The notes under the pieces are model-generated. The model saw only the letters and a program-made list of their open reading frames with translations, did not search any database and was not told the origin of the DNA. Positions 4,628 to 35,884 of a stretch of DNA of 38,009 nucleotides are shown here, piece after piece; within the stretch, counting starts at the first letter, position 1; every line of letters starts with the position of its first letter. The stretch covers positions 1 through 38,009 of the IMG/VR virus record IMGVR_UViG_3300042889_001398, one strand, 5' to 3'. The stretch comes from a virus. The position numbers and the translations under genes were made by a program.

Positions 4628-5503
4628 ATGGATATCAAGAGACACATTGGTCGTCTCAAGAACACTGATCGCCGCATTGCGGTGGTGTTCCTGCAGATTC
4701 CCGGTAAAGAAGACCACGCATTGGTGGTTGATACCGACTCGCTACCCGACAGTTATCACGACGCACTGATGCATGTCGTCGACAGCGTTGAGGGACAACA
4801 AACCCCAATTCTGGCCAACATCCTGAACCGTCGTATGCTACCAGATACCGGTCAGGACATCATGAGTTCGTTGCACGTCCGCGGCTTCATGCAGGCTCAA
4901 CCCATCAGTAACATCCTGATGTTCCCCCGTCCGAATATGCCGATGCCTCTCGAGGACATCATCAAGATGATGAAGCAGACTCCCGCGGAAGCACAGGCTG
5001 ACATTGAAGTCGTGCGTGATCGCTTCCAAGAAGCGGTCAGCCTGGATGGTGCCGAGAAGAATGAGATGCGTGCTCGCAATCTCATTCAACAAGCTCTGGA
5101 TCTGAAGAGCGAAGCCGATCGTAAGCTTCAACAAGCCTACGACATTGCTCCGCAATTCCGTCCTCAGGTTCAACCAAGCGTTCCCACACCCCAACAGGTC
5201 GTGGAGGCTCTACGTGAAGAACCCGTCGTGGCGGCACCAGAGCCAGAGGCTTTTAGTGTAGACGTTGGAGACCTGCCAAGTGACGTCGCGGCTGCCTACT
5301 TCGAGGCCGTAAGAGCGGCTGAGATTCAATCCACAGCTTATGTGGCTCCCGAGATTACCACTGATGCCGCCCACGGCATCAGTGTAGACGATGACGCGGT
5401 CCAGGCTTTCCTGGACCGTGCGGCATTCCGCGAAGACAAACTGAAGGCAGCCGTTGAACCGGTTGCTAAACGTCCAGTGGGTCGTCCTCGTAAGGCGAAA
5501 TAA
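4628..5503 (+). CDS. conserved phage hypothetical protein with AT-hook-like C-terminus
   Basis: This is a 291-residue protein; AGGAGA lies seven bases before ATG 4628. Residues 1-115 are a globular, conserved-looking domain (HIGRLKNTDRRIAVVFLQIP, HALVVDTDSLPDSYHDALM, RRMLPDTGQ, MFPRPNMPMPL). Residues 120-180 are a charged helix, likely coiled coil. The remainder is Ala/Pro/Glu-rich and probably disordered, ending in KRPVGRPRKAK, an AT-hook-like basic motif (GRP flanked by basic residues) suited to the DNA minor groove. I associate the N-terminal domain with an uncharacterised family in cyanophage-like T4 phages, from memory. Its role is unknown; DNA binding is an inference from the tail. Confidence 0.75.
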   Translation: MDIKRHIGRLKNTDRRIAVVFLQIPGKEDHALVVDTDSLPDSYHDALMHVVDSVEGQQTPILANILNRRMLPDTGQDIMSSLHVRGFMQAQPISNILMFPRPNMPMPLEDIIKMMKQTPAEAQADIEVVRDRFQEAVSLDGAEKNEMRARNLIQQALDLKSEADRKLQQAYDIAPQFRPQVQPSVPTPQQVVEALREEPVVAAPEPEAFSVDVGDLPSDVAAAYFEAVRAAEIQSTAYVAPEITTDAAHGISVDDDAVQAFLDRAAFREDKLKAAVEPVAKRPVGRPRKAK

Positions 5504-11178: not shown

Positions 11179-11206
11179 CCAGAGAGGATCCTTAGATCCT
11201 CTCTGG
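11179..11206 (-). terminator. 12-bp hairpin with the giant gene's stop codon in its loop
   Basis: CCAGAGAGGATC (11179-11190) and GATCCTCTCTGG (11195-11206) are perfect reverse complements around a four-base loop that contains the stop codon TAA (11194-11192 on the - strand). No T tract follows; instead the late promoter motif AGTAAATA abuts it. It may protect the 3' end of the 11.9-kb message, act as a processing site, or attenuate readthrough. Confidence 0.5.
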
Positions 11207-14200
11207 TCCTGGCGTTACTGTGGCTAGGAGGAAAGTTCTCCAAGAGGCATTCTGAGCCTCGAGCTTGTCAGTAGTTGAATTCTCGGGCCACACTTTGGCC
11301 CGACCATTCACACCTGGTAGCCACTGGGTGATGCTGCCTTCTAGAACTTCATCTCCGATGGCGTGGATCTTCACAGCATTGCCGTTAGTCCAGTTAGATG
11401 TCTGAGCCGCTATTAGTACTTTAGTAACGGAATATCCTGCCTGATAACCAGTGTATGTGGTCGCCGCCTGTGTGAGAACCACGTTGGTACCCTGTACGAT
11501 GTAGTCAGGACCCAAGTTAAGGCGCTGAACGTAGGTGGGCTTTCCAGCTGCTGTGAAGATCAGAGTCACGAACACATGCTCAGCCAGACCATCCCAATTG
11601 GCATTGTTGATAGCCAGTGTGAGTGTCGATGAGGCGTTATAGAAAGTCCTCGACTGCTTCTCGGTGGCAGCTCTAGATGTAGAACCTGTACCACGTTCGA
11701 CTCCAGTAAGTTTGAACTTGTTGGCCGCAAGAGCTTCCACTCCCCAATAAACTAGGCGTTCCTTACCAATCCATATTACACCTGGATGAGTGCGGGCCGC
11801 GATGGCTGCAAGTTCTATCTCATCAATTTCGATATCACCATTAGCGTCGAGAATAATGTCACCATTCACGTCACGTTTGGCTTTACCCAAATTCAACCTC
11901 AGTGAATCCAAGAAGGGCTGGCTAGGATTCTCGGGATCATGGAATGGGAAGATTGCAGAAGGAGCCTGAATGGTGACTTCAGTGGAAGTGTTCTTGATTA
12001 CCGTAAGGTCTTCCGCAAGGGTCACGTCCTTGTCTAGAAGGCGAACAGCCTCCCATCGGTCCATACCTGATTTGAAGAATCTCATCGCGGTGGGTTGAGT
12101 CAAAAGACCACCTGTCTTTTGATAAACTGTGATCACCAATGGTGCGCGAGGACGCATTTTCAGTAGTTCGTCAGGATGCCCACTATCAACCGTTGGTTGA
12201 ATGAAGTCACCACCATCAAGCATAATAGCAGCTGGGCCGTAGATATCCGGAGACACCACTGGCACGGCAATGTTTCCTGGAAGAGTAGTGGGAACCTTGA
12301 ACAGGCCACTCTCCTCGTCATACACTGGATCCATAGTGCGTTCACCGGCCTCGGTGCGGATGCCATCAACATCTGCGGCAGTATCTAGGAATGAACGGTC
12401 CTCAATTGACACGTCGACACCGATGGCGAGTTCACGCTCGTTGCCCCAGCCTGATTCGAAGTCCCAGACGTACTGGTCGTACATTCCCTGTGCGAATGGA
12501 TCACCCAGTGCCGTTGTTCCACGGAAGTCCACGCCCTCAAGAAGTTCGTTGAATGCCTTACGCTTCATACCGGGACGTGGTTCGTAATACTGGTTAACGC
12601 GATCAACCATACTTGAGGCCCAATCTCTGTCCCAAGACACTGCCCAAATCTCATGCCACATCGTGCCATCCCAGATCCATTGAGTGTCGTCACGAGCGAC
12701 GGTCACGATGGTTCCGGCTGAGATCTCGCGACGGCGGACCAGGTTATTGCGCTCATCCATGTTACGAACCGCGATGTCTCCATATGGGTCGGCGTCGTCA
12801 ATTAGATCACCGCTGCTCACACTACCATGCGTGCCAGTATAGTGGTCCTCATTGCTATCCCATGGCACATCAGGCATATCCCAGCCTGATACTTCATCAC
12901 TCGCAATACGGTCGAAGAGTACGCGGGTTTTGAGTCGACGAATTGGGTTCCACGTCGCATCCCAGCGAAGTAGATTCAAGTTTCCATTCTGATAGTTGTC
13001 GTACCAGTCCTTCCAAGGCTTCCGCGTCTGCATGATTTCAAGATCTAGAGGATCATTGAAGCGTAGATTGCGGTACTCGTTCATACCGGTTGCATATACA
13101 GGACGGTCAAAGTCGGTGACGCCGGTGCGTGCGATATCTGGCTTTGTGGACAGTCTACGCACATAGTCACGAATCTTAACGTGGTATGGTTTGACCTCTT
13201 CCACATATTTGACCACGTTATCAATTTGATCCTTGAAGGCCAATGGGCTCTGACGTAGTTCCTCGGAGTATCCACCCAGATAGAGGAACGAGGTTTTGAA
13301 TGCCCAATCAACCTGTTGATTGAGTGCGAGTGCGCCCTTGAGCATATCGAAGAACAGCTCATTGATCTGAAGTTTGTCAAACAGAGTATCGTAGAAGTGC
13401 CCTAGTAACCAACGGAGTTCATGAGAACCATCACGCTTAGTAATTGCCGTGAGATCATAGCCCTGGTATCCATAGAGCAGAGCGTCGCTACGGTAGAAAC
13501 TATCCTTGAGCTCGATGGTTCCGTTTTGTACGGCCACCACTTCCCAGCCTCCGTTGGTATAAACGCTCCAGGACCAACGAGAATCATTAGCGTCTTGTCT
13601 GTCGATTTGAACCAGAGTGCCTTTAAGGAGAGTTTCATCCACAATGTTCGCGGCATCACGAGTGGCGCGATCAGCAAAGCGGTAGTTGGGGAAATCACTC
13701 TTGCTCCATCCCTCAGCATACCAATCGGCATACTGCCAGAGTTCACCTTCTTGCATACGCCATTTCTGCGCACGTTCCATAAAGAAACCCTTGCTATCAC
13801 TCTGTGGATGACTGGGATCATATCGCCATAGAGTCCAGAAACCATTAGCAGTCTGTGTATCGGTGAGCAGAATACGCTGACCGATTACGACTTGTCCTTC
13901 ATCCAACAGCGCATCACGGTAGTCCATGTCAGGCGCTTCAAAGCTATATTCGTGTGGATAGGGTAATGGTTCCGAGGATTCGAAGACCTCACGCCAGTTG
14001 AACCAAACATCTACGAATGGCTTCTTGCTCAGGATCGCGTTGATGCTTTCGATGAGTAGGCTGCGAGCTCTATGACTTGGGCGACCGTCAGTTTCGGCGG
14101 CAAACCAACTCTGGCGAGGGCGAATAAGGTTACCCAAAGCCTCGCTCTTGGTGAGCAGAGGAGCGGGAACCATTCGTGGATTCTCCACCACACTTTTCTG

Positions 14201-17200
14201 CTCCACCGCAGTACCTACGCCGAATACCGTTTCAGTAGTGTTGGTGATACCAAAGAGAGTGTTATTCTGCTTCCAAGCATACGTGAACCAGTGACCGCCA
14301 ATCTCAAGTTCGCCCACTGGGAGGAGTTGGCTGGCATCTGAAACCGTAATGGTTTCAGATATTTCATTGAACACACTGGTTAGGGTTACGCCCTTGACAT
14401 TCTTGACCTCGCTGTTGCTATCCCAGCCAACCACACTGTCTGTGAGTTTACTCCATTGCTGAGTGTCAATGATGTTACGCTCGTCCTTTTCCCGGATCAG
14501 CATCCACTGTTTGTGATGGTTGACTTCAGTGCCATCCACGGCCCAGTTGATCTTCAACACGGTATCTTCGTCTGTGAGGAATTGCTTGACGCCTCCCACG
14601 ATGACCTTGTTGCTTTGGATAACTGCAAAGTAAGGAATGTCGTTGGCTACTGGATCTGTGATCACGCTAGCTACCTGAATAGCTGTGAGTTTGCGATCCA
14701 CGCGCTTGCTTGGTGTGGTGACATTCTTGAGCCAGAAATAGTAGACGGTTTCCTGAGCCTGTACCACTGGGTTCCACTGGGAGGTTTCAACCCAACCCAG
14801 TGTACCAGGACGGACCTCACCACTCAGCTTATCGGCAGTTCCCGTGATCTTAGCACCCGATGAAACTGAAGCTTCCCAATCCTTGGGATGAATGGTGGAT
14901 TTAGTCCACTCATAGACTTCGATGGTGCTACCCGGAGCCATGCGGCCCCAGTTCTTCCAGCGATATTCCGTAGTTGAGGATTCATATTCTAGATAACGAA
15001 CAGCGCTGATATCCCACCATAGCGTGCCAACTTGCTCGTCGCCCCACACCATGGGTTCATTAACAGTTTCGCCCTCGATAGCGTTGTATCCTGCGGGATC
15101 ATATGGCAGCTTGTAGGTGATCTCACGATCGGCCACCCCAGGAATGATTCCTTTGTAGGGATCATACAATTGCAGGACCTGCTCAACATTATTGGTCAGG
15201 GTATTATAGATTGCAGCCTTGGTGATCTGATTGCTATCAACCTTGGCTCCCTCTGTGCGGATGGTGCGGAATTCATCACCCGACCATTCAAGAACTCTCC
15301 AGCCCGATGGTCCATCAATTTCAACAATGTCGCCAACTTGACGCGACACTAGAGGAGTGAAGGTATTGAGCTTGTTCAAGGTGGCAAATCGAGTTGGTTC
15401 CCAGATGAGAAGGTTGCCGCCCTCACCCTGTTCGTCGCCACTGATTGGAGAGCCACTAGCGTCCAGAAGTTCAAACCCACTCTCATAGTGGTAGTCAACA
15501 ACTACCGTGAGGAGGCCCCTATTGCCATTAGCTTCAAGGTAGGCGATCATGGAATCATCTGCATTGAAAAGTGAGCCATCAACTACGGTAGTGCCGGTGA
15601 CTGCGAGGTCTATGCTGTGGTTGTCAGCTGTAGTGTTCACAAGTTGCACTTCGGCGATGCGGTCAATGGCAGTCGCGTTCACACCATCATAAAGTTGGAT
15701 CTCATACGTTGTCGTTTTGTTAATGGACGACGGGACTGGCAACGCTATGACTCGGAGCCAATGATCCTTACCACTCACACCCGGATTGACCACGGAATTG
15801 AATGTCAACGTGTTACTCGATGGTGTAGTCCAAGTAAGAGCGCCCTTAAGGCGGTAGCGCCATCTTACAGTGCTCACCAGAGGGACTGTGGGGCTCGTAG
15901 CCAGGGTGGCCACTGCATGTGTACCCGAGACGCCTGGAACCACACCACCGCCCGAGAATGTAACCACAGGGGCTACTGCGCCCGAATAGTTGCACTTGCC
16001 AGGATCCTGGATTACAACTCGACTAACCCCATAGTTCATCCTAGCTTCGCCAGCGGCTCCTGAGCCATAATCGTGATGGAACAATACCGTGGGTGCGCTG
16101 GTGTAGCCGGTTCCTGCATTGCTGATTGTCACACCTAGAATTCTACCATCTTCTAGGTCAGCAGGATCAACTACTGCGACCGCTCCGGAACCACCACCAC
16201 CTACAAGTTCAACTGTTGGTACGCTAGTATAGCCTTCGCCCGCATTGGTGAGGTCAATCGAGAGAACTCCACCCGCTAGAACTGCTGTTGCCTTGAGACC
16301 CTCAGGACCGGTAACCACGACTTCTGGTGGACTGGTGTATCCTGACCCAGAAGAACTCACCGCAATACTCGAAGGAGTAAGGTAGATATTACCTGAGCGG
16401 ACAACTTCAACAGAAACAGTCGAATCACCTTCCGCCACCTTAAGACTGGTGTCAAAGATATCAATCTCAATTGGGCGGCCATATAGGAATGCTGGCTTTG
16501 GAGCCAAAACATTGGCGTAAGAAGCATCATCATTGATTGGTTCGAAGCGGTTTAAGAACAATTCGGTATCGTCAGCGCTACCCACGCTGATCGCCGCGGC
16601 CTCGCTACCACCCGTGAATGCTCTCACTACGTTGAACGTAAGCTTGTCCACCACCATGCCCGCATCGTAGAACAAGTACATAAGTTCCACTTCGTCTTTG
16701 GAACCGTCTAGGGTGAATCTAGCCTGATTCACCGTGCGAATGGTATGGATGTTTTGATATTCGTCAGATACTACTCCATCTAGAATGATGGGTGCCGTCC
16801 CCGTGATATCAGGCAGAGCCGTAGAAAGAGTGACCACGGAGCTCTGAAGCTCATGTGTGGGTTTGGCGATTCCTAGAATGGTTACACCGGTATCGATGGC
16901 ACGATAAGTCATCCAATCACCCGAACCGTTGTCATATACCCATGCACGATCACCTGGAAGTATAGATTCAACGATGTGTTCAACCTCCACCGTTACCTTG
17001 ACCTTACCAATGTTGGCACCCAACGGGGCAAGACCCAGATGGTTATATTTCACATACACTGCCGAATTTGACATCAGTGAGTTGTTGATCATTTCCGAAG
17101 GATAGAAATCATGCTCACCAGTCAGAGAAAGATGCTCATCCACGTTTAGATAGGCATCTGGGTCTGAGATAGTACCAACCGTAATCGAAGCTGCCGACTC

Positions 17201-20200
17201 TACAAAGGCCTCTGTGACATCTAGAGTGATTCTATGAATACGATAGAATCCCTTTGACGAATTACCAATGAGTTCCGTAGCGGGGATTACCGCAGGACTA
17301 GTCGAGATACCATTGTAGGCAAACTCCACACTTTTGGTTTTGAGAACACTGGGCTTTTCTGCTTCTTTTATACGGAATAGGGAATTGAATTCTTCTTTGT
17401 TGCGGGCGGTCCATTTCACATCATTGATGTTCACATATCCAGCATTGGGAAGCATGCCTTTTTCTCGCTGGGCATACATTCGGGTCGGCCACTTGATATC
17501 TAGAGCTGGATGACGATTAACCCAGCGTGCATCTTTGTAGAGACAAGTCTTGGTATCTTGGCTGAAGATATCCTTGATGGTGAGAATGTTGTCCTTATCA
17601 CTATCTACGGCTAGGTCTAGGAATCGCTCCGCCTTTACGCGGTAGTGGCCACTGACCTTGATATGACCAGTGGTAACCGCGCCTGTAATGTAGACGCGGA
17701 TGGATCCACCAGTGGGATACTGGAAGGGTGAATCCTTGAAGTCTAGACGGTAGTTGATTTCATCATTGGCACTGGTAAGCTTAAAGAGCTTCTGAGTGTT
17801 CAAATCGTCACCGATGCTGATCTTTGGTGATGTGGAGTTAAGCCCATCGAGGATCTCCACATGAAGATCCAAGAGCTCAGTGGCTTGTGGTAGACTCCAT
17901 ACTTCAAAGTACTTCTGAGAACCCAAGACTGGAAGGTTGGAGAAACCCGTTTGAATCTCAAAGGATATCTCTCGCACATCATCAACTTGATAGCTCTGGA
18001 ATTCGATGAGTTGTGGATTGTTATGGAATTCCTTTTGCTGGAGTTTGAGGTCTAGGCTGGGTAGAACTTCCGCGCCACCATAGTCACCCACGCGAACCGC
18101 CCACTCGTCGAAGAACTTGAGACCTTTGTTGTTTCGGATGAAATTGCTTCGTAGCAATTTCTCCATAACGGAACTCGTGCCTTTTTGTTGAACCATACCC
18201 TGATAGAACTCAAACTGGTTCGTAGGAGTCAGCATCAAGTTGGTCAAGTAATCACGTTCCGCGTAGCCCAGATTAGCACGTCCACGTTCTTGTAGGTCCT
18301 TGTTCTCAAGACCCTCAATATCGAAGATCCTACGGAAATCATCTGCTGCTCGTTCAAAGTTTGGGACGATGCGATTGTCCGTTACAATGAAACCAGGAGC
18401 ATCGATGCGACCACGCCAATTCTCACTGCGATATCCCTGCAGACGAACGCGCGGTTGACGAATATTGAGCAGTGGGTTGTAGATGGTGTCGTTGAAGATC
18501 GTCTGATTGTTGAGAATGATGATATGTTCTAGTTCACTCACATACAGACGTACTCCGAAGATACCGCCGGCCACTTCGAATGGTGTGATCGTGATCTCAT
18601 CATCTGCACGCACCACATTGGTGGATCGAACATCAATGGGTTGGCCCAATCTGTCGTTGATTGCGTAAATGCCGTTGATTACACGTTCCACTGTCTGAAT
18701 AGTGCCGTGCGTGCTGCGGTATTTTAGGGAGAATGCCGCCGGACTCACAGCAATGAAATCACCAGCATTCAAAGAGTTGTCCTGCCAGATGAGGATCTTC
18801 TTAACACTATCCTGCCAGTCCGAGATATCAATACCATCGGTGCTGTGATCGAAAATCCAACCCTGGCCTCTTAGGTAACGATCGTATCCATTCAACACAT
18901 CTACGACTTCCTGAATGGTCTTGAAAGAGGAACCATACGGGATCTGCTCCACGAGGGCACCGATTTCACCCTCAAGATACCAAGCCACGCCGTTGACAGC
19001 GATACGAGGACGTTCACTCATCTGAGTCCAGAACTCGTTCTCAAATGTCTTGCCCGAAGTATGAGTCTTCGCGCAGGTGTAGAAATTGTCACCACGTTGA
19101 ATCAATGTGCCTACGACGTAGTATGTTGAAGCACGCCACTGGCTGATCTTGGCCAGACGTTCTCCACTGTTGATTTGAATGGCGCCAGAATTGGGATCTG
19201 CTCGAAGGATCTTGAAGTATGGGTTCAGAACATCATAGCCAAAGACCTTCCAATCCTGACCTGACCATTCCACAATGGCACCACTATAGAATTCTTCTCG
19301 AATGCTAGGTGAGCGGTACATCTGAACCGTCACGTCCTCATTGGGCACTCGATCAAAGGAATCTGTTACCACATTGAGAGTTGAACTGTCGGTGAAGCCA
19401 CCCATCTTGTACGCCAGTTGAACCCCAAGGCCTCGAACAAGATTGCCAAAGTTCTCTGTGACATCTGCGCCTCGGTTGATCAAAAAGTCACTGATCCATT
19501 GCTGGATACCTATCAATTGGGCGACATTACCATCCTCGTCACGTTCACCATGCACGGCAAGATCGGAGGATTTGCTACGTTGCTTAGCCGCACCGTTAAC
19601 TACCTGTTCGTTATCGCTACCCAAGAAGATCTTGGTGACATTCTTAGCATCCCACGACATTTCTACGAACATTGCGGGTTTCATAAGGTATCCCACTTGC
19701 GCTATGGAATATGGGAACCACGTGCTGCGACGCCATAGAGTTTCGATTGGACTACCATCGCCCCATGCCCAATCTGCACGAGCTTCACCCATGGTAGGCT
19801 CGTTTTCTGCTAGGTTGGCCTGATAAGGTGTTACGAGTTTACCACTTGAATCCACGGGCAGATAGTTACGGAGATTGACTCGTGCATAACGAGGATTGAT
19901 TCCCCTTCGAGCACCTGCGAAAATACGGCCCGCTTCCAGATCACCCCATAGAATATGGTTGTTGCTCGTGTAAGGGGCAGGGCCGTAACGATTGGTCCAC
20001 CATGTGGGTTCGTTGTTGAATCCAAGCATCTCCCATGGATGAGTATGCGGGCGATCAGTGTCGTAGACATACTGATAGATTCCGCGCCAGTGGCCCTGGA
20101 GTTGTTTGCCTGTGATCTTGTTGGTCACAGAGCTCCAATTCCAAGTCATTGGATCCTCGATATCGAAGGTGTCGTTCGTTCGGTAGTTCAATCCATTGGC

Positions 20201-23098
20201 ACTACCCCAGCGCTCAAAACCTGGCTGAAGAAGGCTGAGGAATTCATTGTACGAATAACTGGAAGTGCTGAAGCAACCACTGACCCACTGGCTTACATCG
20301 AAGACGGGACGCTCAACGGTGCGCACACTAGCTGTTGTGGATTCATAGATCCTCTTCTCCAGATTCAACAGAACGTAGTCCCTGATGTCACCATACAGGA
20401 GTGTGAGACTACCATCGTGACCTTGAAGGAAATACTGAGGATTGACCAGGGTGGTGTCCGAGATAACCTTAGGGACATAAAGGTTGTGAACACCTAGATA
20501 GCTTGCCGTCGCGGGTATGTAGGTGGGTAGGGGATGATCCTCCGTGATACCCACGCCTGAATAGTAGAAAGCAAAACTGCTGGTCTTGCCCCTGTTGATC
20601 TCTTCCAAGGCAGTGTCAACCCAAGTATCAAGTGGATCTTGATTTCCCAGACGACCGTTGGTCAGGAATTCTGTGATCTTCTGTTCAAACTTGCTTCGGA
20701 ACCTGGCGTATTCAGCTTCCACGAAACGGATGCTAGACATAAGGTCCAGATTCTCTCGCGCACTCAAGAGCATGGTCTTCAACAGGCCAGCTGAGTGTTG
20801 AATGATATGAGTGCCACGGAAACGCTGCTGGCTGGAATCGCGCCAATTATTTGCGTCGTACACCGCACCTTGGAAGTCAGGCTGGTTAGCGATGATATCT
20901 GCGAACTGGACATAGTAATCACCCTTCGCCAGAGTGGAGATCTCCTCGTAGTCAGGGTTGGCTTGTAGGTTGAGCGGAACCTCGTAGAAGCCCTGTGCGT
21001 TTAGAGGCGGGTTCAGAGGGTTGAAGGATTTGACTTCAATGATGTCGCCGTCCTGTACCTCATTGACTACAAGAGTGCGATCGCTGAGGAAGAAGTCCAC
21101 GTAGCGTTCCAGATTGAGATTCTGATATTCACCACCGCTGTTCTGACGACCACGGGTGACTGTGATCATCGCAGGAGTATTGTCTATTTCAGACGCAGGC
21201 TCTTGGCTGATTTCAAAGATGCCATTGCCGTCTTTGACAAGGAACCGATCCACAATGGACTGACGAGACGTATAGTCTGCCTTGTACCAATCATTGCTCA
21301 GCTTGGGAGTTGACCCACTTGTCTTGTTGAAGTAGAAACCTTTGATTGTCTGAAGGTCACTGGTCTGCCCATACTGGAAGGTCTCAGTCGCGAGATAGTT
21401 TTGGAATACAAACTGACCAGTCTTATCATGAACAGTTCGGAAACCCAGCACGCTATCTAGCGCACGTGAACCACTGGTGTTCAACTGATAGGTAAAGAGT
21501 TTGCTTCCTTGGAAGGTTGAACCTGGGTAGACTTCCGGATCAGCTAGACTCACGCCATCATAATCGAATAGTTCGAAGAGTGGGAATTGGTTATCCTGTG
21601 TCTTCAGTTGAGCTTCTAACCAACTCACACCATCGAAGTAAAGTTCTTTGCCGGCAAACTTATCGCCGCTCTTGACCTTGACGACTTCACCAATTTCGGG
21701 ATTACCCGTTACGTCAAGACCATCCGTTTCCGGTGATAGTCGGAGTTTATTGTCCAGAATGGTGACGAGGTAAATGCGGCTATTCACAGCCTCATTCAAG
21801 TCACTATTGATGAGAAGACGTAGGCTGGGCGATGAGATGTTCACCGCATTGTCAATCACATACTGTACATTCAGAGTCACACCGTCGATGATGTCCAGTG
21901 CCGTGGCACGATCATGGATACTACCAATTACGTCAGTCACACCATCGCATACCAGATCCACATCATCACGTCGATGCGTGCCGTACTTGAAAAGCTTTAG
22001 GTCGCGTACGAATTCAACAATGGGCCTAGTAGCAACATTGGCCTTAAGGTCCACGAGTTCGTCTGCTTTAATGGTGTCCTTGTGGAACCAGCGGTTCCCT
22101 GTGCTCCAAGGATTCTTGTCATTACAACCACGTGCCATGACGAGATATTGTGGATCTAGGTCACCACCTGTATCCTCGATGATTTCAATCTGACTACCCA
22201 CTCCTTCAACGATGAATGTCTTACCGTTGTAGGTGGGATTGACATCATTGGTGATGGTGATGCGTTGGTTGCTTGATAGTACGACATCGCCTAGACTCTC
22301 AGGATCGTAACTCAATGAGTTACGTCCCAACACATACTGATCCAAATCACTACTGACCCAGACCGTTACCTGTGCATCAATCGCAGGAGCGGGGAAGAGT
22401 GTAACCTTCTTCGTGGTATCGTCGTAGGTGAAGGTATTGTTTGAGGTACCATTACCCAACACGTAGGTGAAGGTATCAACTTTGACTTTGATCTGTTCTT
22501 CATCGAGCGTGACCACATTGTAGAAGTCACTCTCTCCACTTTCCAACAGAGGAAGGTCGAATTGAGTCGTTACGCCATCGCCCACAAAAGTTTCCTTGGG
22601 GCCGATAATGGATAGAGCGGACACGCCGCTATTTACCCAGTAGTATTGGCGGAAGTTGATGAGTTTATCTAGATCAATGGGAGGACACCATGTGTAGAAT
22701 TCTTGCTCAAACAAACGGTTATGATTATTCACAAGGCTTCCTTGGAAGCGCAACTGGTTGATCAGATCCGTGTAGAACAGAGTAGAGTTAATTTCTCCAT
22801 CTGGGCTCTTGCTGACCATTGTACTCTCGAGTTGATAGAACGAACGCAAGCGGCTCAGTTCCTCGAGATAGTGATCCTGCTTGGGATCATGCCACACTGG
22901 ATACTGACCCACATAACCATTCAATGGTCGGGCCTCGCCTGGATTGAACAGGTGATCAACCGTACTACCAAAGAATTTGGTAAGACTTTCGGTCTGATGA
23001 ACTCCAGGAAGCTGTTTGATTATCCTTCGCTTTTCACCTGGATTCTGATCCAGAATCCTGGGATTGAACTTGTAGGAAGAGGGTAGGTTGTCTACCAT
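11192..23098 (-). CDS. giant baseplate wedge protein (gene 7 position), 3968 residues
   Basis: This single open frame of 11.9 kb starts at an ATG overlapping the gp6 stop as TAATG. It holds the place of T4 gene 7, directly after gene 6, but T4 gp7 is about 1030 residues. Residues 25-160 (KQLPGVHQTESLTKFFGSTV, LNGYVGQYPVWHDP, LFYTDLINQLRFQGSLVNNH, WCPPIDLDKLINFRQYYW) match the opening of very large structural proteins in cyanophage-like phages (from memory). Residues about 165-255 form a VGDGVTTQFDLP beta module. Residues about 2236-2350 hold three GxGYTSxPxV repeats, and residues about 3765-3810 hold a VIWIGKERLVYWGV...TGVERGT module. The rest is beta-rich and Trp/Tyr-rich with no enzymatic motif or transmembrane segment. 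It probably forms a large outer part of the wedge. A gp7-gp8/gp10-like fusion is possible but not demonstrable here. Confidence 0.85.
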   Translation of the reverse strand: MVDNLPSSYKFNPRILDQNPGEKRRIIKQLPGVHQTESLTKFFGSTVDHLFNPGEARPLNGYVGQYPVWHDPKQDHYLEELSRLRSFYQLESTMVSKSPDGEINSTLFYTDLINQLRFQGSLVNNHNRLFEQEFYTWCPPIDLDKLINFRQYYWVNSGVSALSIIGPKETFVGDGVTTQFDLPLLESGESDFYNVVTLDEEQIKVKVDTFTYVLGNGTSNNTFTYDDTTKKVTLFPAPAIDAQVTVWVSSDLDQYVLGRNSLSYDPESLGDVVLSSNQRITITNDVNPTYNGKTFIVEGVGSQIEIIEDTGGDLDPQYLVMARGCNDKNPWSTGNRWFHKDTIKADELVDLKANVATRPIVEFVRDLKLFKYGTHRRDDVDLVCDGVTDVIGSIHDRATALDIIDGVTLNVQYVIDNAVNISSPSLRLLINSDLNEAVNSRIYLVTILDNKLRLSPETDGLDVTGNPEIGEVVKVKSGDKFAGKELYFDGVSWLEAQLKTQDNQFPLFELFDYDGVSLADPEVYPGSTFQGSKLFTYQLNTSGSRALDSVLGFRTVHDKTGQFVFQNYLATETFQYGQTSDLQTIKGFYFNKTSGSTPKLSNDWYKADYTSRQSIVDRFLVKDGNGIFEISQEPASEIDNTPAMITVTRGRQNSGGEYQNLNLERYVDFFLSDRTLVVNEVQDGDIIEVKSFNPLNPPLNAQGFYEVPLNLQANPDYEEISTLAKGDYYVQFADIIANQPDFQGAVYDANNWRDSSQQRFRGTHIIQHSAGLLKTMLLSARENLDLMSSIRFVEAEYARFRSKFEQKITEFLTNGRLGNQDPLDTWVDTALEEINRGKTSSFAFYYSGVGITEDHPLPTYIPATASYLGVHNLYVPKVISDTTLVNPQYFLQGHDGSLTLLYGDIRDYVLLNLEKRIYESTTASVRTVERPVFDVSQWVSGCFSTSSYSYNEFLSLLQPGFERWGSANGLNYRTNDTFDIEDPMTWNWSSVTNKITGKQLQGHWRGIYQYVYDTDRPHTHPWEMLGFNNEPTWWTNRYGPAPYTSNNHILWGDLEAGRIFAGARRGINPRYARVNLRNYLPVDSSGKLVTPYQANLAENEPTMGEARADWAWGDGSPIETLWRRSTWFPYSIAQVGYLMKPAMFVEMSWDAKNVTKIFLGSDNEQVVNGAAKQRSKSSDLAVHGERDEDGNVAQLIGIQQWISDFLINRGADVTENFGNLVRGLGVQLAYKMGGFTDSSTLNVVTDSFDRVPNEDVTVQMYRSPSIREEFYSGAIVEWSGQDWKVFGYDVLNPYFKILRADPNSGAIQINSGERLAKISQWRASTYYVVGTLIQRGDNFYTCAKTHTSGKTFENEFWTQMSERPRIAVNGVAWYLEGEIGALVEQIPYGSSFKTIQEVVDVLNGYDRYLRGQGWIFDHSTDGIDISDWQDSVKKILIWQDNSLNAGDFIAVSPAAFSLKYRSTHGTIQTVERVINGIYAINDRLGQPIDVRSTNVVRADDEITITPFEVAGGIFGVRLYVSELEHIIILNNQTIFNDTIYNPLLNIRQPRVRLQGYRSENWRGRIDAPGFIVTDNRIVPNFERAADDFRRIFDIEGLENKDLQERGRANLGYAERDYLTNLMLTPTNQFEFYQGMVQQKGTSSVMEKLLRSNFIRNNKGLKFFDEWAVRVGDYGGAEVLPSLDLKLQQKEFHNNPQLIEFQSYQVDDVREISFEIQTGFSNLPVLGSQKYFEVWSLPQATELLDLHVEILDGLNSTSPKISIGDDLNTQKLFKLTSANDEINYRLDFKDSPFQYPTGGSIRVYITGAVTTGHIKVSGHYRVKAERFLDLAVDSDKDNILTIKDIFSQDTKTCLYKDARWVNRHPALDIKWPTRMYAQREKGMLPNAGYVNINDVKWTARNKEEFNSLFRIKEAEKPSVLKTKSVEFAYNGISTSPAVIPATELIGNSSKGFYRIHRITLDVTEAFVESAASITVGTISDPDAYLNVDEHLSLTGEHDFYPSEMINNSLMSNSAVYVKYNHLGLAPLGANIGKVKVTVEVEHIVESILPGDRAWVYDNGSGDWMTYRAIDTGVTILGIAKPTHELQSSVVTLSTALPDITGTAPIILDGVVSDEYQNIHTIRTVNQARFTLDGSKDEVELMYLFYDAGMVVDKLTFNVVRAFTGGSEAAAISVGSADDTELFLNRFEPINDDASYANVLAPKPAFLYGRPIEIDIFDTSLKVAEGDSTVSVEVVRSGNIYLTPSSIAVSSSGSGYTSPPEVVVTGPEGLKATAVLAGGVLSIDLTNAGEGYTSVPTVELVGGGGSGAVAVVDPADLEDGRILGVTISNAGTGYTSAPTVLFHHDYGSGAAGEARMNYGVSRVVIQDPGKCNYSGAVAPVVTFSGGGVVPGVSGTHAVATLATSPTVPLVSTVRWRYRLKGALTWTTPSSNTLTFNSVVNPGVSGKDHWLRVIALPVPSSINKTTTYEIQLYDGVNATAIDRIAEVQLVNTTADNHSIDLAVTGTTVVDGSLFNADDSMIAYLEANGNRGLLTVVVDYHYESGFELLDASGSPISGDEQGEGGNLLIWEPTRFATLNKLNTFTPLVSRQVGDIVEIDGPSGWRVLEWSGDEFRTIRTEGAKVDSNQITKAAIYNTLTNNVEQVLQLYDPYKGIIPGVADREITYKLPYDPAGYNAIEGETVNEPMVWGDEQVGTLWWDISAVRYLEYESSTTEYRWKNWGRMAPGSTIEVYEWTKSTIHPKDWEASVSSGAKITGTADKLSGEVRPGTLGWVETSQWNPVVQAQETVYYFWLKNVTTPSKRVDRKLTAIQVASVITDPVANDIPYFAVIQSNKVIVGGVKQFLTDEDTVLKINWAVDGTEVNHHKQWMLIREKDERNIIDTQQWSKLTDSVVGWDSNSEVKNVKGVTLTSVFNEISETITVSDASQLLPVGELEIGGHWFTYAWKQNNTLFGITNTTETVFGVGTAVEQKSVVENPRMVPAPLLTKSEALGNLIRPRQSWFAAETDGRPSHRARSLLIESINAILSKKPFVDVWFNWREVFESSEPLPYPHEYSFEAPDMDYRDALLDEGQVVIGQRILLTDTQTANGFWTLWRYDPSHPQSDSKGFFMERAQKWRMQEGELWQYADWYAEGWSKSDFPNYRFADRATRDAANIVDETLLKGTLVQIDRQDANDSRWSWSVYTNGGWEVVAVQNGTIELKDSFYRSDALLYGYQGYDLTAITKRDGSHELRWLLGHFYDTLFDKLQINELFFDMLKGALALNQQVDWAFKTSFLYLGGYSEELRQSPLAFKDQIDNVVKYVEEVKPYHVKIRDYVRRLSTKPDIARTGVTDFDRPVYATGMNEYRNLRFNDPLDLEIMQTRKPWKDWYDNYQNGNLNLLRWDATWNPIRRLKTRVLFDRIASDEVSGWDMPDVPWDSNEDHYTGTHGSVSSGDLIDDADPYGDIAVRNMDERNNLVRRREISAGTIVTVARDDTQWIWDGTMWHEIWAVSWDRDWASSMVDRVNQYYEPRPGMKRKAFNELLEGVDFRGTTALGDPFAQGMYDQYVWDFESGWGNERELAIGVDVSIEDRSFLDTAADVDGIRTEAGERTMDPVYDEESGLFKVPTTLPGNIAVPVVSPDIYGPAAIMLDGGDFIQPTVDSGHPDELLKMRPRAPLVITVYQKTGGLLTQPTAMRFFKSGMDRWEAVRLLDKDVTLAEDLTVIKNTSTEVTIQAPSAIFPFHDPENPSQPFLDSLRLNLGKAKRDVNGDIILDANGDIEIDEIELAAIAARTHPGVIWIGKERLVYWGVEALAANKFKLTGVERGTGSTSRAATEKQSRTFYNASSTLTLAINNANWDGLAEHVFVTLIFTAAGKPTYVQRLNLGPDYIVQGTNVVLTQAATTYTGYQAGYSVTKVLIAAQTSNWTNGNAVKIHAIGDEVLEGSITQWLPGVNGRAKVWPENSTTDKLEAQNASWRTFLLATVTPGPERI
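16060..16375 (-). repeat. three GxGYTSxPxV beta repeats in the giant baseplate protein
   Basis: The encoded units SGSGYTSPPEVVVTGPEG, NAGEGYTSVPTVELVGGGGS and NAGTGYTSAPTVLFHHDYGS follow one another with short Ala/Val-rich spacers. A fourth, decayed unit may follow (CNYSGAVAPVVTFSGGG). Such repeats occur in adhesive or structural beta modules of phage virion proteins. Confidence 0.75.
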
Positions 23099-26983: not shown

Positions 26984-27012
26984 TTGACATAGATGTTACC
27001 AGAGTCCATACT
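26984..27012 (+). promoter_or_regulatory. sigma-70-type promoter of the exonuclease cassette, with dyad over the -10
   Basis: TTGACA (26984-26989), 17-base spacer, CATACT (27007-27012). TTACCAG (26996-27002) and CTGGTAA (27011-27017) flank the -10 as a perfect seven-base inverted repeat. The left half ACCAGAGT is shared with the promoter at 27832. RNA would start near 27019, directly at the next start codon. Confidence 0.7.
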
Positions 27013-27019
27013 GGTAAAT

Positions 27020-27226
27020 GTGAAAAAGAAAACTACGCCGCGCAGCTTTCTTGGCGTTGCTGCACAGAACATACCTCCTGCAATCAGCAAGCTTCCTGTC
27101 CTCGACATTGTGGATAAGAAGCGTCCTGCACCTAAGGTTATCAAACCGGACAGTAAGAAGAAACTGATTGACGTTCCGGAAGATCGAATCAAGTCCGACA
27201 AATCCAAGGACTTGCTTGATGAGTGA
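27020..27226 (+). CDS. small basic Lys/Pro-rich protein, possibly leaderless
   Basis: This frame encodes 68 residues from GTG 27020: KKKTTPRSFLGVAAQNIPPA, then Lys/Pro-rich sequence (DKKRPAPKVIKPDSKKK) and a charged tail. It ends overlapping the exonuclease start. The open frame extends back to ATG 26993, but that lies between the -35 and -10 boxes and would not be transcribed from this promoter. The predicted RNA start falls at the GTG, with no room for a ribosome site, so translation would be leaderless or weak. It is likely disordered and nucleic-acid binding by charge. No family recognised. Confidence 0.5.
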   Translation: MKKKTTPRSFLGVAAQNIPPAISKLPVLDIVDKKRPAPKVIKPDSKKKLIDVPEDRIKSDKSKDLLDE

Positions 27227-27845
27227 GCGTATGGCCAAACAAGAAATATACTGCATGACGGACGTAGAAGCCGACGGCAAGGCACCGGGCATCTCCAACA
27301 TGCTGAGCTTCGCGACCGCTGCCTTTGACATTGAGAAGAACCTATTGGGTACGTTTGAGGCCAACCTGGCGCTCATGCCCGGTGCTCTACCTCATCCCGA
27401 TACCACAGCGTTTTGGAACGAATCGGCTGCCAACAAGGCGGCCTATCAGATCACTAGGTTGAATCTACAAGATCCCGCAGAAGCAATGGCCGCATACGTG
27501 GCGTGGCTCGCCACGCTTCCTGGTACTCCGGTGTTCGTGGGCTATCCGGCAGCCTATGATTTCAAATGGATTGACTGGTATTGTATCAAATACCTAGATA
27601 TGAACCCGTATAGCTTCAGCAGAGTCATCGACGTCAAGAGTTTTGCGTGGGCTCAGATGGCCAAAGGCACGTTCCAATCCTGCAGCAAGCGTAGAATGCC
27701 CAGTGAATGGTTCGATGATCTGCCGCACACTCACGTGGCTATCGATGACGCGATTGAACAAGGTGCGATGTTCATTAACATGCTCCGCGCCAACCGGAAC
27801 ATGACTCCCATCCAGGGGATCAAAACAAAGGTTGACGCTACATAA
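27219..27845 (+). CDS. DEDDh-type 3'-5' exonuclease
   Basis: This is a 208-residue protein from ATG 27219, eight bases after AAGGA and overlapping the previous stop. DEDDh exonuclease motifs: I-x-CMTDVEADG (first Asp and Glu, residues 15 and 17), PVFVGYPAAYDFKWIDW (second Asp), and HTHVAIDDAIEQGAM (His and the last Asp). The helix-and-Trp region between them (DTTAFWNESAANKAAYQ) resembles the Rv2179c/DexA-like group of phage exonucleases more than the polymerase proofreading group. It would trim RNA or DNA 3' ends in the cytoplasm. It sits on the strand opposite the baseplate genes in a cassette with its own promoter. Confidence 0.82.
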   Translation: MSERMAKQEIYCMTDVEADGKAPGISNMLSFATAAFDIEKNLLGTFEANLALMPGALPHPDTTAFWNESAANKAAYQITRLNLQDPAEAMAAYVAWLATLPGTPVFVGYPAAYDFKWIDWYCIKYLDMNPYSFSRVIDVKSFAWAQMAKGTFQSCSKRRMPSEWFDDLPHTHVAIDDAIEQGAMFINMLRANRNMTPIQGIKTKVDAT

Positions 27846-27859
27846 CCAGAGTATATACT
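27832..27859 (+). promoter_or_regulatory. sigma-70-type promoter at the exonuclease 3' end
   Basis: TTGACG (27832-27837), 16-base spacer, TATACT (27854-27859), followed by CTGG. No protein gene follows on the + strand before the terminator at 27935. RNA would start near 27866. The only visible product is a short RNA of about 95-100 bases. Confidence 0.6.
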
Positions 27860-27869
27860 CTGGTTATGT
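27840..27869 (+). promoter_or_regulatory. perfect 30-bp palindrome over a promoter
   Basis: The half site ACATAACCAGAGTAT (27840-27854) is followed directly by its exact reverse complement (27855-27869). It covers the -10 box and start site of the promoter at 27832, beginning at the exonuclease stop codon. The core CAGAGTAT/ATACTCTG recurs at 34791-34807 before gp55. Best read as an operator for a dimeric DNA-binding protein. Confidence 0.75.
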
Positions 27870-27964
27870 GGTAGGGACAAGGACTAGATCCAAGGTCCCC
27901 GGTGTAGGGCGAGGGCGTGGGCCGCTACGCAAACGGGGAGGGCAGTGATGCCCTCCCCTTTCTT
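27866..27964 (+). ncRNA. putative small RNA between exonuclease and gp5 genes
   Basis: A promoter (27832) and an intrinsic terminator (27935-27964) bracket about 100 bases with no convincing reading frame. The RNA would be G-rich. One possible fold pairs GGGAC with GTCCC around 27873-27899, with an inner GGA/TCC, followed by the terminator stem. It might be a regulatory RNA or only a short abortive transcript. No known RNA family is recognised. Confidence 0.35.
27935..27964 (+). terminator. intrinsic terminator between the cassette and the gp5 gene
   Basis: GGGGAGGGCA (27935-27944) pairs perfectly with TGCCCTCCCC (27949-27958) around GTGA, followed by TTTCTT on the + strand. The gp5-like gene ends at 27963 on the other strand, so the same stem may also end its transcript, with a weaker T tract. 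Confidence 0.85.
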
Positions 27965-29966
27965 ATGTGCGTTCTCTGCCGACAATCGTACCGCCCTCTC
28001 TACCACATTTAGGCAGAAAGCTATGCACGACCAGCCATTGTCCCATGTAGCGATTTCGTAGAATTTCAAAGTGAAGGTGGGGTTGGCTATTCACGATTCC
28101 TGTTCTACCACTCGTACCAACCACTTGTCCCTGTTGTACGCTCTGACCCACTCTGACATTTAGGCTGTTCATATGGGCATAGAGAGTAACTAGGCCGTTG
28201 TCGTGCTTGATACAAAGAGCTGTTCCATAGCCACTGCCTTGACCTCCACTACCACCTGTTCGTCGAGTTGTTCTAGTTCCAAACCTACCTTGGAATGTAT
28301 CGACCACCACACCTGATTTGGCTGCATATACAGGCGTGCCAATAGGTGCCGCAATATCCACTCCTTTGTGGGGTCTAGTTCCACCACCTGACTTAGTTCG
28401 AATCTTACCTGAACGACTGGTGATTCTACCAGAAATTGGATACATCCAACCTCGGTCCTCGCCATCAGGGGGCGGTGGGGTGGTGCCATCCTCATTGTCA
28501 GCACCGCCCTCGGGTGTTGGCACGTTAGGTGCCGATTCTAATTGAGATCCAGAAGTATTTGGGTTAGGAGCAATATCGTCCGGTGGTGTTTCTGATCTAG
28601 GATGGCCTGGCCAAGGTTCGTGAGTTGGAAGAACGCCGACGGTCGAGCCCGTTGCCATATCAGGATAACCAGCTGCTTGGTTGACCTCGATATCGTGATG
28701 TGATTCTGGTTCTGGAGCCGTTGCTCCTTCAGCTTGGGTCGCGGCCGGACCCGCACCTCCGTTGGTGTTAACCTTTGAACCATTGAGGAACAATTGTCCC
28801 GACGACGTTACACCTAGCGCGCCACTACTCTGCAGGGCCAGAGTACCAGAACTCAAGACGCTGGAATTACCAGCCGATGTAAGGTTGATGTCTCCCATGG
28901 AATTCAAGTGAATACTACCCGCAGTGCTGACGCGGAAGCTTCCTGGCACCACAATATCTAGATCCCCAGCCACTTGGAAGCTACCCGTGCTACCAGTCAT
29001 ATTGGTGCCTCCCACACTGTTGATCGTGGTGTTGCCCTCCGTATGGAGATTTGTGCCTTGCATGGCACGAACATTGAAGGTTCGTGTCGTGAATGCGTTA
29101 ATTCCTTCATCACTAATCTCGAACCAGCTGTTACCGTTCTTGCTGATCATGTAGACATAACCCACTGTCTCATTGATGAGAACCTGAGCTCCCGAACGAG
29201 TCCGTAGACGGATGAATTCGTTCTCGGGATTGTCGTCGACGTGAACCGTGTTTCCTCGAGGTGTGGAGAAGCCATAGACATGACTTGCTTCTACGCTAGC
29301 CACCGCGGCTCCACTCTCATTCGTGTTTACGCTGACATTACGACGGGCGCTGCTGTCAGAAGGCCCACGTTGAGGGTCGGTATATAGACCCTGAGCCAAG
29401 AAGCCATCATGCAATGGATCAAAGCGAGGACGCATGGGATCGTCCGAGACGGCCTGTGATTCGTCCTTTTTGTTGTACTCAACAGTAGGTGGGTTGATAC
29501 CGTCTTCCCCTTCTTGATGCGATGCACTACTGGCCAAACCAGGAACCATATGATTCATGCGTTGCTGGAAGAGACATCCGATCCATAGACCACGAGTGGG
29601 ATCACCATTTGCAAAGATCACCACAACTTCGTTACCCACGTGGGGAGGCACTGCCCACCAACCGTAGCTCATCTGGCTTTCTTTGTATTCTTTGCCATCC
29701 TTGACGTTGCCAGCGATTGACGTGGCACCAGCGAAGGGGCTGCAATAGTTCACTGTAATCCAATTCTCTGCATTGTCGGCATCGGTCGATGATGTGGATG
29801 TATTGGGGTGAATCTCAGGAATCCAAACCCGTAATCTACCCATGTAGGTTTCATCATCGACCGCTTTTACGAAGCCAACGTATGTTTGGTTATAGAGATT
29901 GACGCGTCCTTCGGGTTGGCCCTGATAGACCTTGGGTGAATGGACGGAACGACGGGCCGTACTCAT
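27963..29966 (-). CDS. 5: gp5-like baseplate spike with C-terminal M23 peptidase
   Basis: This 667-residue protein combines an N-terminal gp5/VgrG-type OB domain (YVGFVKAVDDETYMGRLRVWIPE, GWWAVPPHVGNEVVVIFANGDPTRGLWIG, residues 30-135), a middle beta-helix-like spike (residues 240-400), a Pro/Glu/Ser-rich linker (400-500) and a C-terminal M23 endopeptidase (506-667). The M23 metal and catalytic motifs are complete: RPHKGVD (His533, Asp537), YAHM (His598), PHLHFE (His630, His632). T4 gp5 carries a lysozyme in the middle; here no lysozyme domain is seen and a peptidase cutting peptidoglycan cross-links takes its role at the end of the chain. It would pierce and digest the cell wall during injection. 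The start overlaps the hub gene stop (ATGA). Confidence 0.9.
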   Translation of the reverse strand: MSTARRSVHSPKVYQGQPEGRVNLYNQTYVGFVKAVDDETYMGRLRVWIPEIHPNTSTSSTDADNAENWITVNYCSPFAGATSIAGNVKDGKEYKESQMSYGWWAVPPHVGNEVVVIFANGDPTRGLWIGCLFQQRMNHMVPGLASSASHQEGEDGINPPTVEYNKKDESQAVSDDPMRPRFDPLHDGFLAQGLYTDPQRGPSDSSARRNVSVNTNESGAAVASVEASHVYGFSTPRGNTVHVDDNPENEFIRLRTRSGAQVLINETVGYVYMISKNGNSWFEISDEGINAFTTRTFNVRAMQGTNLHTEGNTTINSVGGTNMTGSTGSFQVAGDLDIVVPGSFRVSTAGSIHLNSMGDINLTSAGNSSVLSSGTLALQSSGALGVTSSGQLFLNGSKVNTNGGAGPAATQAEGATAPEPESHHDIEVNQAAGYPDMATGSTVGVLPTHEPWPGHPRSETPPDDIAPNPNTSGSQLESAPNVPTPEGGADNEDGTTPPPPDGEDRGWMYPISGRITSRSGKIRTKSGGGTRPHKGVDIAAPIGTPVYAAKSGVVVDTFQGRFGTRTTRRTGGSGGQGSGYGTALCIKHDNGLVTLYAHMNSLNVRVGQSVQQGQVVGTSGRTGIVNSQPHLHFEILRNRYMGQWLVVHSFLPKCGREGGTIVGRERT

Positions 29967-34776: not shown

Positions 34777-34810
34777 TTGACGCGACAACTCAGAGTATCA
34801 TACTCTGAGT
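34777..34810 (+). promoter_or_regulatory. sigma-70-type promoter for gp55 with an 11-bp dyad over the -10
   Basis: TTGACG (34777-34782), 16-base spacer, CATACT (34799-34804), then CTG. ACTCAGAGTAT (34788-34798) and ATACTCTGAGT (34800-34810) are perfect reverse complements about one base. The core CAGAGTAT/ATACTCTG is the same as in the palindrome at 27840. Predicted RNA start is near 34811. Confidence 0.7.
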
Positions 34811-34893: not shown

Positions 34894-35826
34894 ATGACAG
34901 TCACCCCAAAAGTGAACTACCTAACCAACAAGGAACTCCTCAGTGAGATCCATAAGTCCAAGAATTCATTCTCCTACTACCTAGAACCCCACCACAAACA
35001 ATATGATTTCATCGTCGACAGTCTCGACGAAGTCACCCCAGAGCTAATTGCCGAGGCACGCTCAAAGCGTGCGACTCGCATGATGCAGGCCGACAAAGCA
35101 GCTCAGAAGCTCAAGGGCCTCAAGAACCATCAAATCAAAGTCGCCCTGGTAGATCCCGAGAGCATTGCTATCGAGGACCTTGTATGGCGCGTCAATACCT
35201 ATGAACACATTCCCGAGATGCCTGGTCGGGTTAAGATTCCCAAGACCACAGCAGACCGCTACACCAAGTTGATCTTCCCTCCGTTCAAGCACTATTGCGT
35301 GGATGGTCAGGGCAATGCCACTGAAGTGGGTCGATCACACTGGAAAGACGGTCTGGGTAACGGTCAATTCTCTCAAGAGCACGGTAAGATTTCCAACCGA
35401 CTAGCTTTGATGTTCATGAAATTGGTAGAGCGTTACAGCCAACGCGCGAACTGGCGTGGTTATACATACGTTGACGAGATGCGTAGCCAAGCACTTCTAC
35501 AGCTCAGCGCCGTGGGATTGCAGTTTGACGAATCTCGCTCCGACAACCCATTCGCCTACTACACTGTGACGGTCAGTAATGCTTTTACGAGGATTCTGAA
35601 TCTCGAGAAGCGTTGCCAGAACATCCGTGATGACATCCTGATTCAGAATGGTGTCACTCCGTCTATGACGCGCCAGTTGCAGAATGAAATCGATCAGAAG
35701 ATGACCATTGAAGCTGAGGCTCTTGGTATGACACTTGAAGAACTCAAAGCAGAACGAGCACCTGCCAAGAAGGTCTTTGGTCGGGGCCGCCCCAAAAAGC
35801 TTGTCACTTCCTCCAAAGACCAATAG
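34894..35826 (+). CDS. 55: late transcription sigma factor gp55
   Basis: This 310-residue protein is gp55, which directs host RNA polymerase to late promoters. The start VNYLTNKELLSEIHKSK matches T4 gp55 (NYVNNKELLQAI). The sigma region 2 core is clear at about residues 165-235: ISNRLALMFMKLVERYSQRANWRGYTYVDEMRSQ, LQFDESRSDNPFAYYTVTVSNAFTRILNLEKR. T4 gp55 is 185 residues; here residues 20-165 add a domain with DLVWRVNTYEHIPEMPGR and KLIFPPFKHYC, as I recall from cyanophage gp55. The C-terminus ends FGRGRPKKLVTSSKDQ, an AT-hook-like motif, and lacks the acidic-hydrophobic clamp-binding tail of T4 gp55. TAG is followed directly by TGA. It has its own dyad-bearing promoter. Confidence 0.93.
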   Translation: MTVTPKVNYLTNKELLSEIHKSKNSFSYYLEPHHKQYDFIVDSLDEVTPELIAEARSKRATRMMQADKAAQKLKGLKNHQIKVALVDPESIAIEDLVWRVNTYEHIPEMPGRVKIPKTTADRYTKLIFPPFKHYCVDGQGNATEVGRSHWKDGLGNGQFSQEHGKISNRLALMFMKLVERYSQRANWRGYTYVDEMRSQALLQLSAVGLQFDESRSDNPFAYYTVTVSNAFTRILNLEKRCQNIRDDILIQNGVTPSMTRQLQNEIDQKMTIEAEALGMTLEELKAERAPAKKVFGRGRPKKLVTSSKDQ

Positions 35827-35855
35827 TGACTCTCTGGGTGCCAGTTCCTTATAAT
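35826..35855 (+). promoter_or_regulatory. sigma-70-type promoter for gene 47
   Basis: GTGACT (35826-35831), 18-base spacer, perfect TATAAT (35850-35855), then CTGG. CCAGTTCCTTATAATCTGG (35841-35859) nearly repeats CCAGTCCCTTATACTCTG at 4286-4303, and the CCAG...CTGG ends are symmetric around the -10. RNA would start near 35862, before the AGAGGG ribosome site. Confidence 0.7.
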
Positions 35856-35884
35856 CTGGTTTAGTACCATAACAAGAGGGTCGT

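Follow-up and report, generated by a model that had tools for sequence, protein, structure and literature searches.

A predicted short RNA under a probable early-type promoter overlapped by a perfect palindrome, where an exonuclease gene ends in a T4-related jumbo phage contig

Known small RNAs and the genomic setting of the unit

Bacterial small RNAs that derive from 3′ untranslated regions (3′ UTRs) and are transcribed from a promoter internal to the open reading frame, such as MicX of Vibrio cholerae, have been reviewed (PMC9438474). A passage of that review cites a 3′-UTR-derived small RNA found experimentally in the giant phage phiKZ (Gerovac et al. 2021, cited in PMC9438474). Small RNAs are also known from virulent phages, namely sRNA1 and sRNA2 of PAK_P3, which are about 100 nt long and induced late, and the band C and D RNAs of T4 (PMC4933390). 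The unit described here consists of a promoter overlapped by a perfect palindrome and followed by a terminator. It resembles MicX in having a promoter where a coding gene ends and a short RNA in the 3′ UTR but differs from the MicX-type RNAs in being predicted from sequence, in lying under a perfect palindrome and in occurring in one phage only. The phiKZ RNA and that of the unit would both be gene-less products of a jumbo-phage 3′ UTR, although the phages are unrelated and the latter RNA is a prediction. Similarly, the RNAs of PAK_P3 and T4 have been observed, whereas the small RNA of the unit, also from a virulent phage, is predicted from an early-type promoter. The unit is predicted to belong with own-promoter 3′-UTR RNAs and phage small RNAs, both of which are already known. 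The papers searched on the jumbo phages Atu_ph07 and AP-J-162 make no mention of promoters, palindromes or small RNAs.

The window (the whole stretch of DNA analysed) is a viral contig of 38,009 bp. Its T4-type genes encode baseplate wedge proteins like gp25 and gp53, a gp5-like hub that has a peptidase domain, the late sigma factor gp55 and a gp47-like (SbcD-like) nuclease. The large gene adjoining gp25 was taken to be gp6 because Atu_ph07 has a baseplate wedge gene at that position. Beside this gene lies an unusually large open frame of 3968 codons (11192-23098, minus strand), and Atu_ph07 has a giant structural gene at the equivalent place. Among the contigs compared, the closest relatives of the window reach 465 kb, have the same gene order and show exonuclease identities of 66 to 74%. 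Among annotated phages, DNA similarity over 27301-28700 was confined to 64 bp of the exonuclease gene of the Agrobacterium jumbo phage Atu_ph07. The T4-type genes together with the jumbo-phage relatives indicate, therefore, that the window is part of the genome of a jumbo phage related to T4. Within it, the unit is located where the exonuclease gene ends and is convergent with gp5:

27219 to 27845, plus strand: exonuclease gene (start at 27219 or 27231), with its stop codon within the palindrome
27963 to 29966, minus strand: gp5-like baseplate hub gene with a peptidase domain, convergent with the promoter unit

The palindromic promoter and its predicted RNA

The unit comprises the following features:

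27832 to 27837, plus strand: −35 hexamer TTGACG, from a promoter scan
27840 to 27869, no strand: perfect 30-bp palindrome and presumed operator, from an inverted-repeat search
27854 to 27859, plus strand: −10 hexamer TATACT, from the promoter scan
27866 to 27964, plus strand: predicted RNA of about 99 nt with no recognisable reading frame, its start placed by a leaderless-gene rule
27935 to 27958, plus strand: intrinsic terminator hairpin, corresponding in position to the short post-exonuclease hairpin of the relatives

The palindrome is loop-free, with two arms of 15 nt (27840-27854 and 27855-27869) that are 100% complementary, and is the longest perfect palindrome in the window, the next longest being 14 bp. 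It takes in the distal part of the spacer together with the −10 and extends over the predicted start at 27866, and its centre adjoins TATACT, 16 nt behind TTGACG. The original prediction described a promoter fully covered by a perfect palindrome; this description was accurate for the 30-bp palindrome, the −10 and the start but not for the −35, which lies outside the palindrome and inside the exonuclease reading frame. The promoter is sigma70-like (TTGACG-N16-TATACT) and matches the consensus at 10 of 12 positions. As promoter-like sites were no more frequent in this region than in shuffled sequence (17 versus 18.6), the hexamers alone prove nothing, and it is the palindrome combined with the sister sites in the window that makes the promoter credible. 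With up to three mismatches allowed, the half site occurred six times against an expectation of 0.8, and six occurrences were reached in 0 of 100 shuffles. Two other roles for the palindrome were considered and rejected. A bidirectional promoter would have a minus-strand −10 by symmetry but TCCCTA at the −35 position, and a terminator would need a U tract, which is missing on both strands.

All three of the other plus-strand promoter candidates in the window bear related symmetric sites:

26984 to 27012, plus strand: predicted exonuclease-operon promoter, TTGACA-N17-CATACT, with the inverted repeat TTACCAG-N8-CTGGTAA at 26996-27017
34777 to 34804, plus strand: gp55 promoter, TTGACG-N16-CATACT, with a palindrome at 34788-34810
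35826 to 35859, plus strand: gp47 promoter candidate, GTGACT-N18-TATAAT, with CCAG-N11-CTGG at 35841-35859

The gp55 palindrome reads ACTCAGAGTAT-C-ATACTCTGAGT and is accompanied by TTGACGC and a 16-nt spacer to CATACT, in agreement with the earlier proposal that the unit and gp55 have an operator core in common. Relative to the unit, the gp55 sequence has one base fewer to the left of the core and one extra at its centre, a loss and a gain that leave the −35 to −10 distance at 16. The short CCAG/CTGG motif is not specific by itself, since only three of the eight CCAG-N8-12-CTGG sites in the window fall on plus-strand promoter candidates and five lie elsewhere. The small gene 5′ of the exonuclease gene (27020-27226, plus strand) may start at GTG 27020 rather than at the listed ATG 26993; this GTG coincides with the predicted start site of the exonuclease-operon promoter and would make the gene near-leaderless.

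The exact palindrome was found nowhere else in a search across viral contigs, and the combined promoter-operator pattern gave no match in viral contigs. The operator core of the window was absent from all 11 related records, and no copy of the operator was seen upstream of gp55 in the relatives. A looser form of the core, CAGAGTAT-N0-2-ATACTCTG, returned 28 stretches, none of them with a TTGACGC context and most with minimal arms, which were read as chance. The promoter and control site of the unit are probably real, with counterparts in related viruses.

The start of the RNA was placed according to the leaderless ATGs of the relatives, which stand at position 34 from the first T of TTGAC; applied to the unit, this rule gives 27866. 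The terminator, GGGGAGGGCA-GTGA-TGCCCTCCCC-TTTCTT, begins 65 nt 3′ of the palindrome and was first in the list of terminator-like sites for the region, consistent with the strong terminator that had been proposed. The unit is predicted to have its promoter at the end of a coding gene and its terminator in common with the exonuclease gene, and a transcript of about 99 nt from about 27866 to about 27964 is a reasonable prediction. The absence of a convincing gene between promoter and terminator was upheld. No tRNA or tmRNA was detected in the unit, Rfam gave no gathering-score match in the window and only weak, chance-level matches near the unit, and no frame of the unit had a convincing protein match in related contigs. 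The start codon of a small gene is missing.

A regulatory or decoy function for the RNA, as originally suggested, is unsupported. Searches for an RNA homologue in ten related contigs found none, DNA similarity in annotated phages was limited to chance-level matches at the terminator end, and no Rfam family was assigned. The original prediction would be refuted by a palindrome conserved alone beside a freely changing RNA region; in the related contigs compared, neither the palindrome nor the RNA was conserved. The proposed stem GGGAC/GTCCC was present in the minimum-energy fold, but the 68-nt RNA body, excluding the terminator, was no more stable than shuffled sequence (z of −0.69, with 45 of 200 shuffles at least as stable). 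Folding energy relative to shuffles gave a z of −6.4 for the whole unit and −2.5 from 27866 onwards; as the body without the terminator has a z of only −0.7, it is the palindrome and the terminator that account for the low energy of the unit as a whole. A possible long-range pairing was noted between 27866-27877 and 27997-28008, about 0.2 such pairs being expected by chance on our own estimate.

The junction and the promoter class in related jumbo phages

The junction was compared in 13 related loci, of which about nine are distinct. One short hairpin lies no more than a few bases beyond the exonuclease stop codon, except in L012, where the end of gp5 is directly behind the exonuclease stop with no hairpin. 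The window junction has about 90 extra bp, made up of the palindrome and G-rich DNA, ahead of an equivalently placed terminator. As this promoter block is missing at the junction in the 13 related loci, it was interpreted as a local insertion. The C terminus of the window exonuclease also differs from the PIKGIPNR of the relatives. A more distant relative, L188, has a small open frame at the identical place, indicating that the site accepts extra genes.

The related contigs contain a strong promoter class, CTGGTTGAC-N16-TAnnnn, mostly with a start codon 50 to 70 nt downstream; 149 CTGGTTGAC promoters in the relatives have a start codon nearby. These start codons are either led by a Shine-Dalgarno sequence, 50 to 70 nt behind the promoter, or leaderless. 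A weight matrix found 326 sites in the relatives, and in a control it found 151 sites in real sequence versus 2 in the same contigs reversed. The class is presumed to be early from its host-type promoter and its many small genes; nearly all of its members in the relatives drive small genes, and a few drive gene-less RNAs. Hundreds of early-type promoters were observed in G001, G003, G004, G007 and G010, some with the −10 inside inverted repeats. Apparently leaderless genes, in which the ATG begins exactly 34 bases beyond the first T of TTGAC, were seen at G004:C1:191846, G010:C1:462318 and G001:C1:171175 and, in G007:C1, at 290303, 313282, 354977 and 429634.

The promoter of the unit has the TTGAC −35 of the class, the 16-nt spacer to the −10, CCAG/CTGG half sites and, with arms of 15 nt, the inverted repeat over the −10 that is present in part of the class only. 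It differs in having neither the CT of CTGG nor the TG before the −10 and in having no start codon behind it. Its matrix score of 3.9 was exceeded by one other site in the window, and the reversed window contains a single site with a score of 8.7. As the training set has its 5th percentile at 6.5 and its median at 30, both above this 3.9, the window site is related to the class in architecture rather than a proven member.

Inverted-repeat arms of at least 8 over the −10 were present in 40 of 278 class promoters. When right halves were swapped between promoters of one genome in 50 runs, the mean was 9.7 and the maximum was 16, indicating that the two arms of one promoter match beyond the shared consensus; duplication among promoters could inflate this excess, as the swap control removes its effect incompletely. 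Many different arm sequences were found in the relatives. Mismatches flanked within the arms comprised 16 G-T and 21 A-C, and the absence of a G-T excess favours symmetry at the DNA level over an RNA stem, although the numbers are small. It is an unlikely proposal that early-type promoters are built inside palindromes whose symmetry, not fixed sequence, is kept and is read by a regulator or through DNA structure, with the unit of the window as an extreme, perfect and non-coding case. The main alternative is a mutational origin of the matching arms, by quasipalindrome correction through template switching in replication; passages in two papers document such homogenisation of inverted-repeat arms in other organisms (PMC7202029, PMC8604942).

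A structured, covarying gene-less RNA, the GACRATA-loop RNA, was observed in five related jumbo-phage contigs:

L090:463-639, L076:9611-9825, L132:7702-7888 and L117:11485-11672, minus strand: copies of the GACRATA-loop RNA
L232, about 4740-4860, plus strand: copy of the GACRATA-loop RNA

This RNA has a rod-like fold made up of short stems and containing two symmetric 7x7 internal loops, in which GACGATA or AACGATA faces GACAATA or AACAATA. In the five sequences, 6 of 13 pairs were changed on both sides, a signal that was destroyed by sliding the partners. Several copies have a TTGAC promoter upstream and a terminator downstream. No Rfam gathering match was obtained for loci L090 and L132, a model built from this RNA recovered no copies from 18 related records beyond the four already known, and covariance model R1 had no match in the window at E values up to 10. 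As this gene-less structured RNA uses the same promoter type in relatives, it was counted for the small-RNA reading of the unit, which is kept alive by the gene-less RNAs driven by this promoter class elsewhere in the family. A further gene-less candidate is located at G001:C1:256650 (plus strand), where a class promoter has a terminator about 170 nt downstream and no open frame was found; another class promoter lies beyond it at G001:C1:256867. At G007:C1:363257 (minus strand), a leader of about 110 nt separates a promoter from the start codon and includes a very long stem (from GCGCATAGTTGACTACCGAGA); it may be a leader element of a mobile or regulatory kind.

Competing explanations and implications

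The preferred reading, which we hold at even probability, is that an operator-controlled promoter of early type produces an RNA of about 99 nt using the exonuclease terminator. In this T4-related jumbo phage, a sigma70 promoter of early type would have its −10 and start site inside a symmetric operator, and the block would be a local insertion of about 90 bp placed where the exonuclease gene ends, immediately ahead of the terminator. When the regulator is absent, transcription by the host RNA polymerase would begin near 27866 and end at 27958-27964. The product would be a 3′-UTR-type small RNA of about 99 nt with its own promoter and the terminator of the parent gene. A putative dimeric regulator, from phage or host, would control the unit through the palindrome and might also control the promoters of the exonuclease operon, gp55 and gp47 jointly with it. 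We infer promoter activity, regulator binding and RNA accumulation from the sequence features described above. Weighing against this reading are the matrix score of 3.9 beside the reversed-window site at 8.7, a body unstructured beyond shuffles, the lack of a homologue in ten related contigs, the absence of the block from the junction in 13 related loci and a palindrome that the searches found in no other viral contig.

Nearly as good an explanation, held tentatively, is a solo promoter. The block would then be a promoter-operator cassette that entered together with a small early gene, or as a copy made from one, the coding part having since disappeared or having stayed behind, with the RNA, if transcribed, a functionless by-product. 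The small genes driven by nearly all class promoters in the relatives, the small open frame of L188 at the same place, the featureless RNA body without homologues and the restriction of the insertion to the window phage, against 13 related loci, all fit such a history. A gene remnant, however, is recognisable in no frame, the palindrome is perfect over 30 bp, unlike a decaying site, and a proper terminator ends the transcript, though it is the exonuclease gene's own.

An improbable alternative is that the palindrome acts as an RNA hairpin ending the exonuclease mRNA, as a stabiliser or processing site, and that the promoter match is incidental. The palindrome would form a strong RNA stem of 13 bp right at the stop codon, and the relatives carry a hairpin directly behind theirs; that hairpin, however, corresponds to the terminator, which the window also has. 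Related symmetric sites, identically placed with respect to the hexamers, at three other promoter candidates in the window, and the lack of a G-U bias in the relatives' arms also argue against it. About equally improbable is a tiny basic protein from GTG 27868, 2 bases past the predicted start, for although relatives have leaderless genes behind such promoters and this near-leaderless frame of 26 codons (MVGTRTRSKVPGVGRGRGPLRKRGGQ) is open as far as the terminator, a frame of such length is likely by chance in G-rich DNA, has no protein match in related contigs and no Shine-Dalgarno site, and an ATG exactly at the predicted start gives two codons only (ATG TGG TAG).

If the RNA of the preferred reading is made, the few small RNAs listed for virulent giant phages would gain a testable candidate. 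The wider setting is of greater use: promoters with symmetric sites over the −10 number in the hundreds among related uncultivated jumbo phages, and this class offers a handle on gene timing in phages that still rely on the host RNA polymerase.
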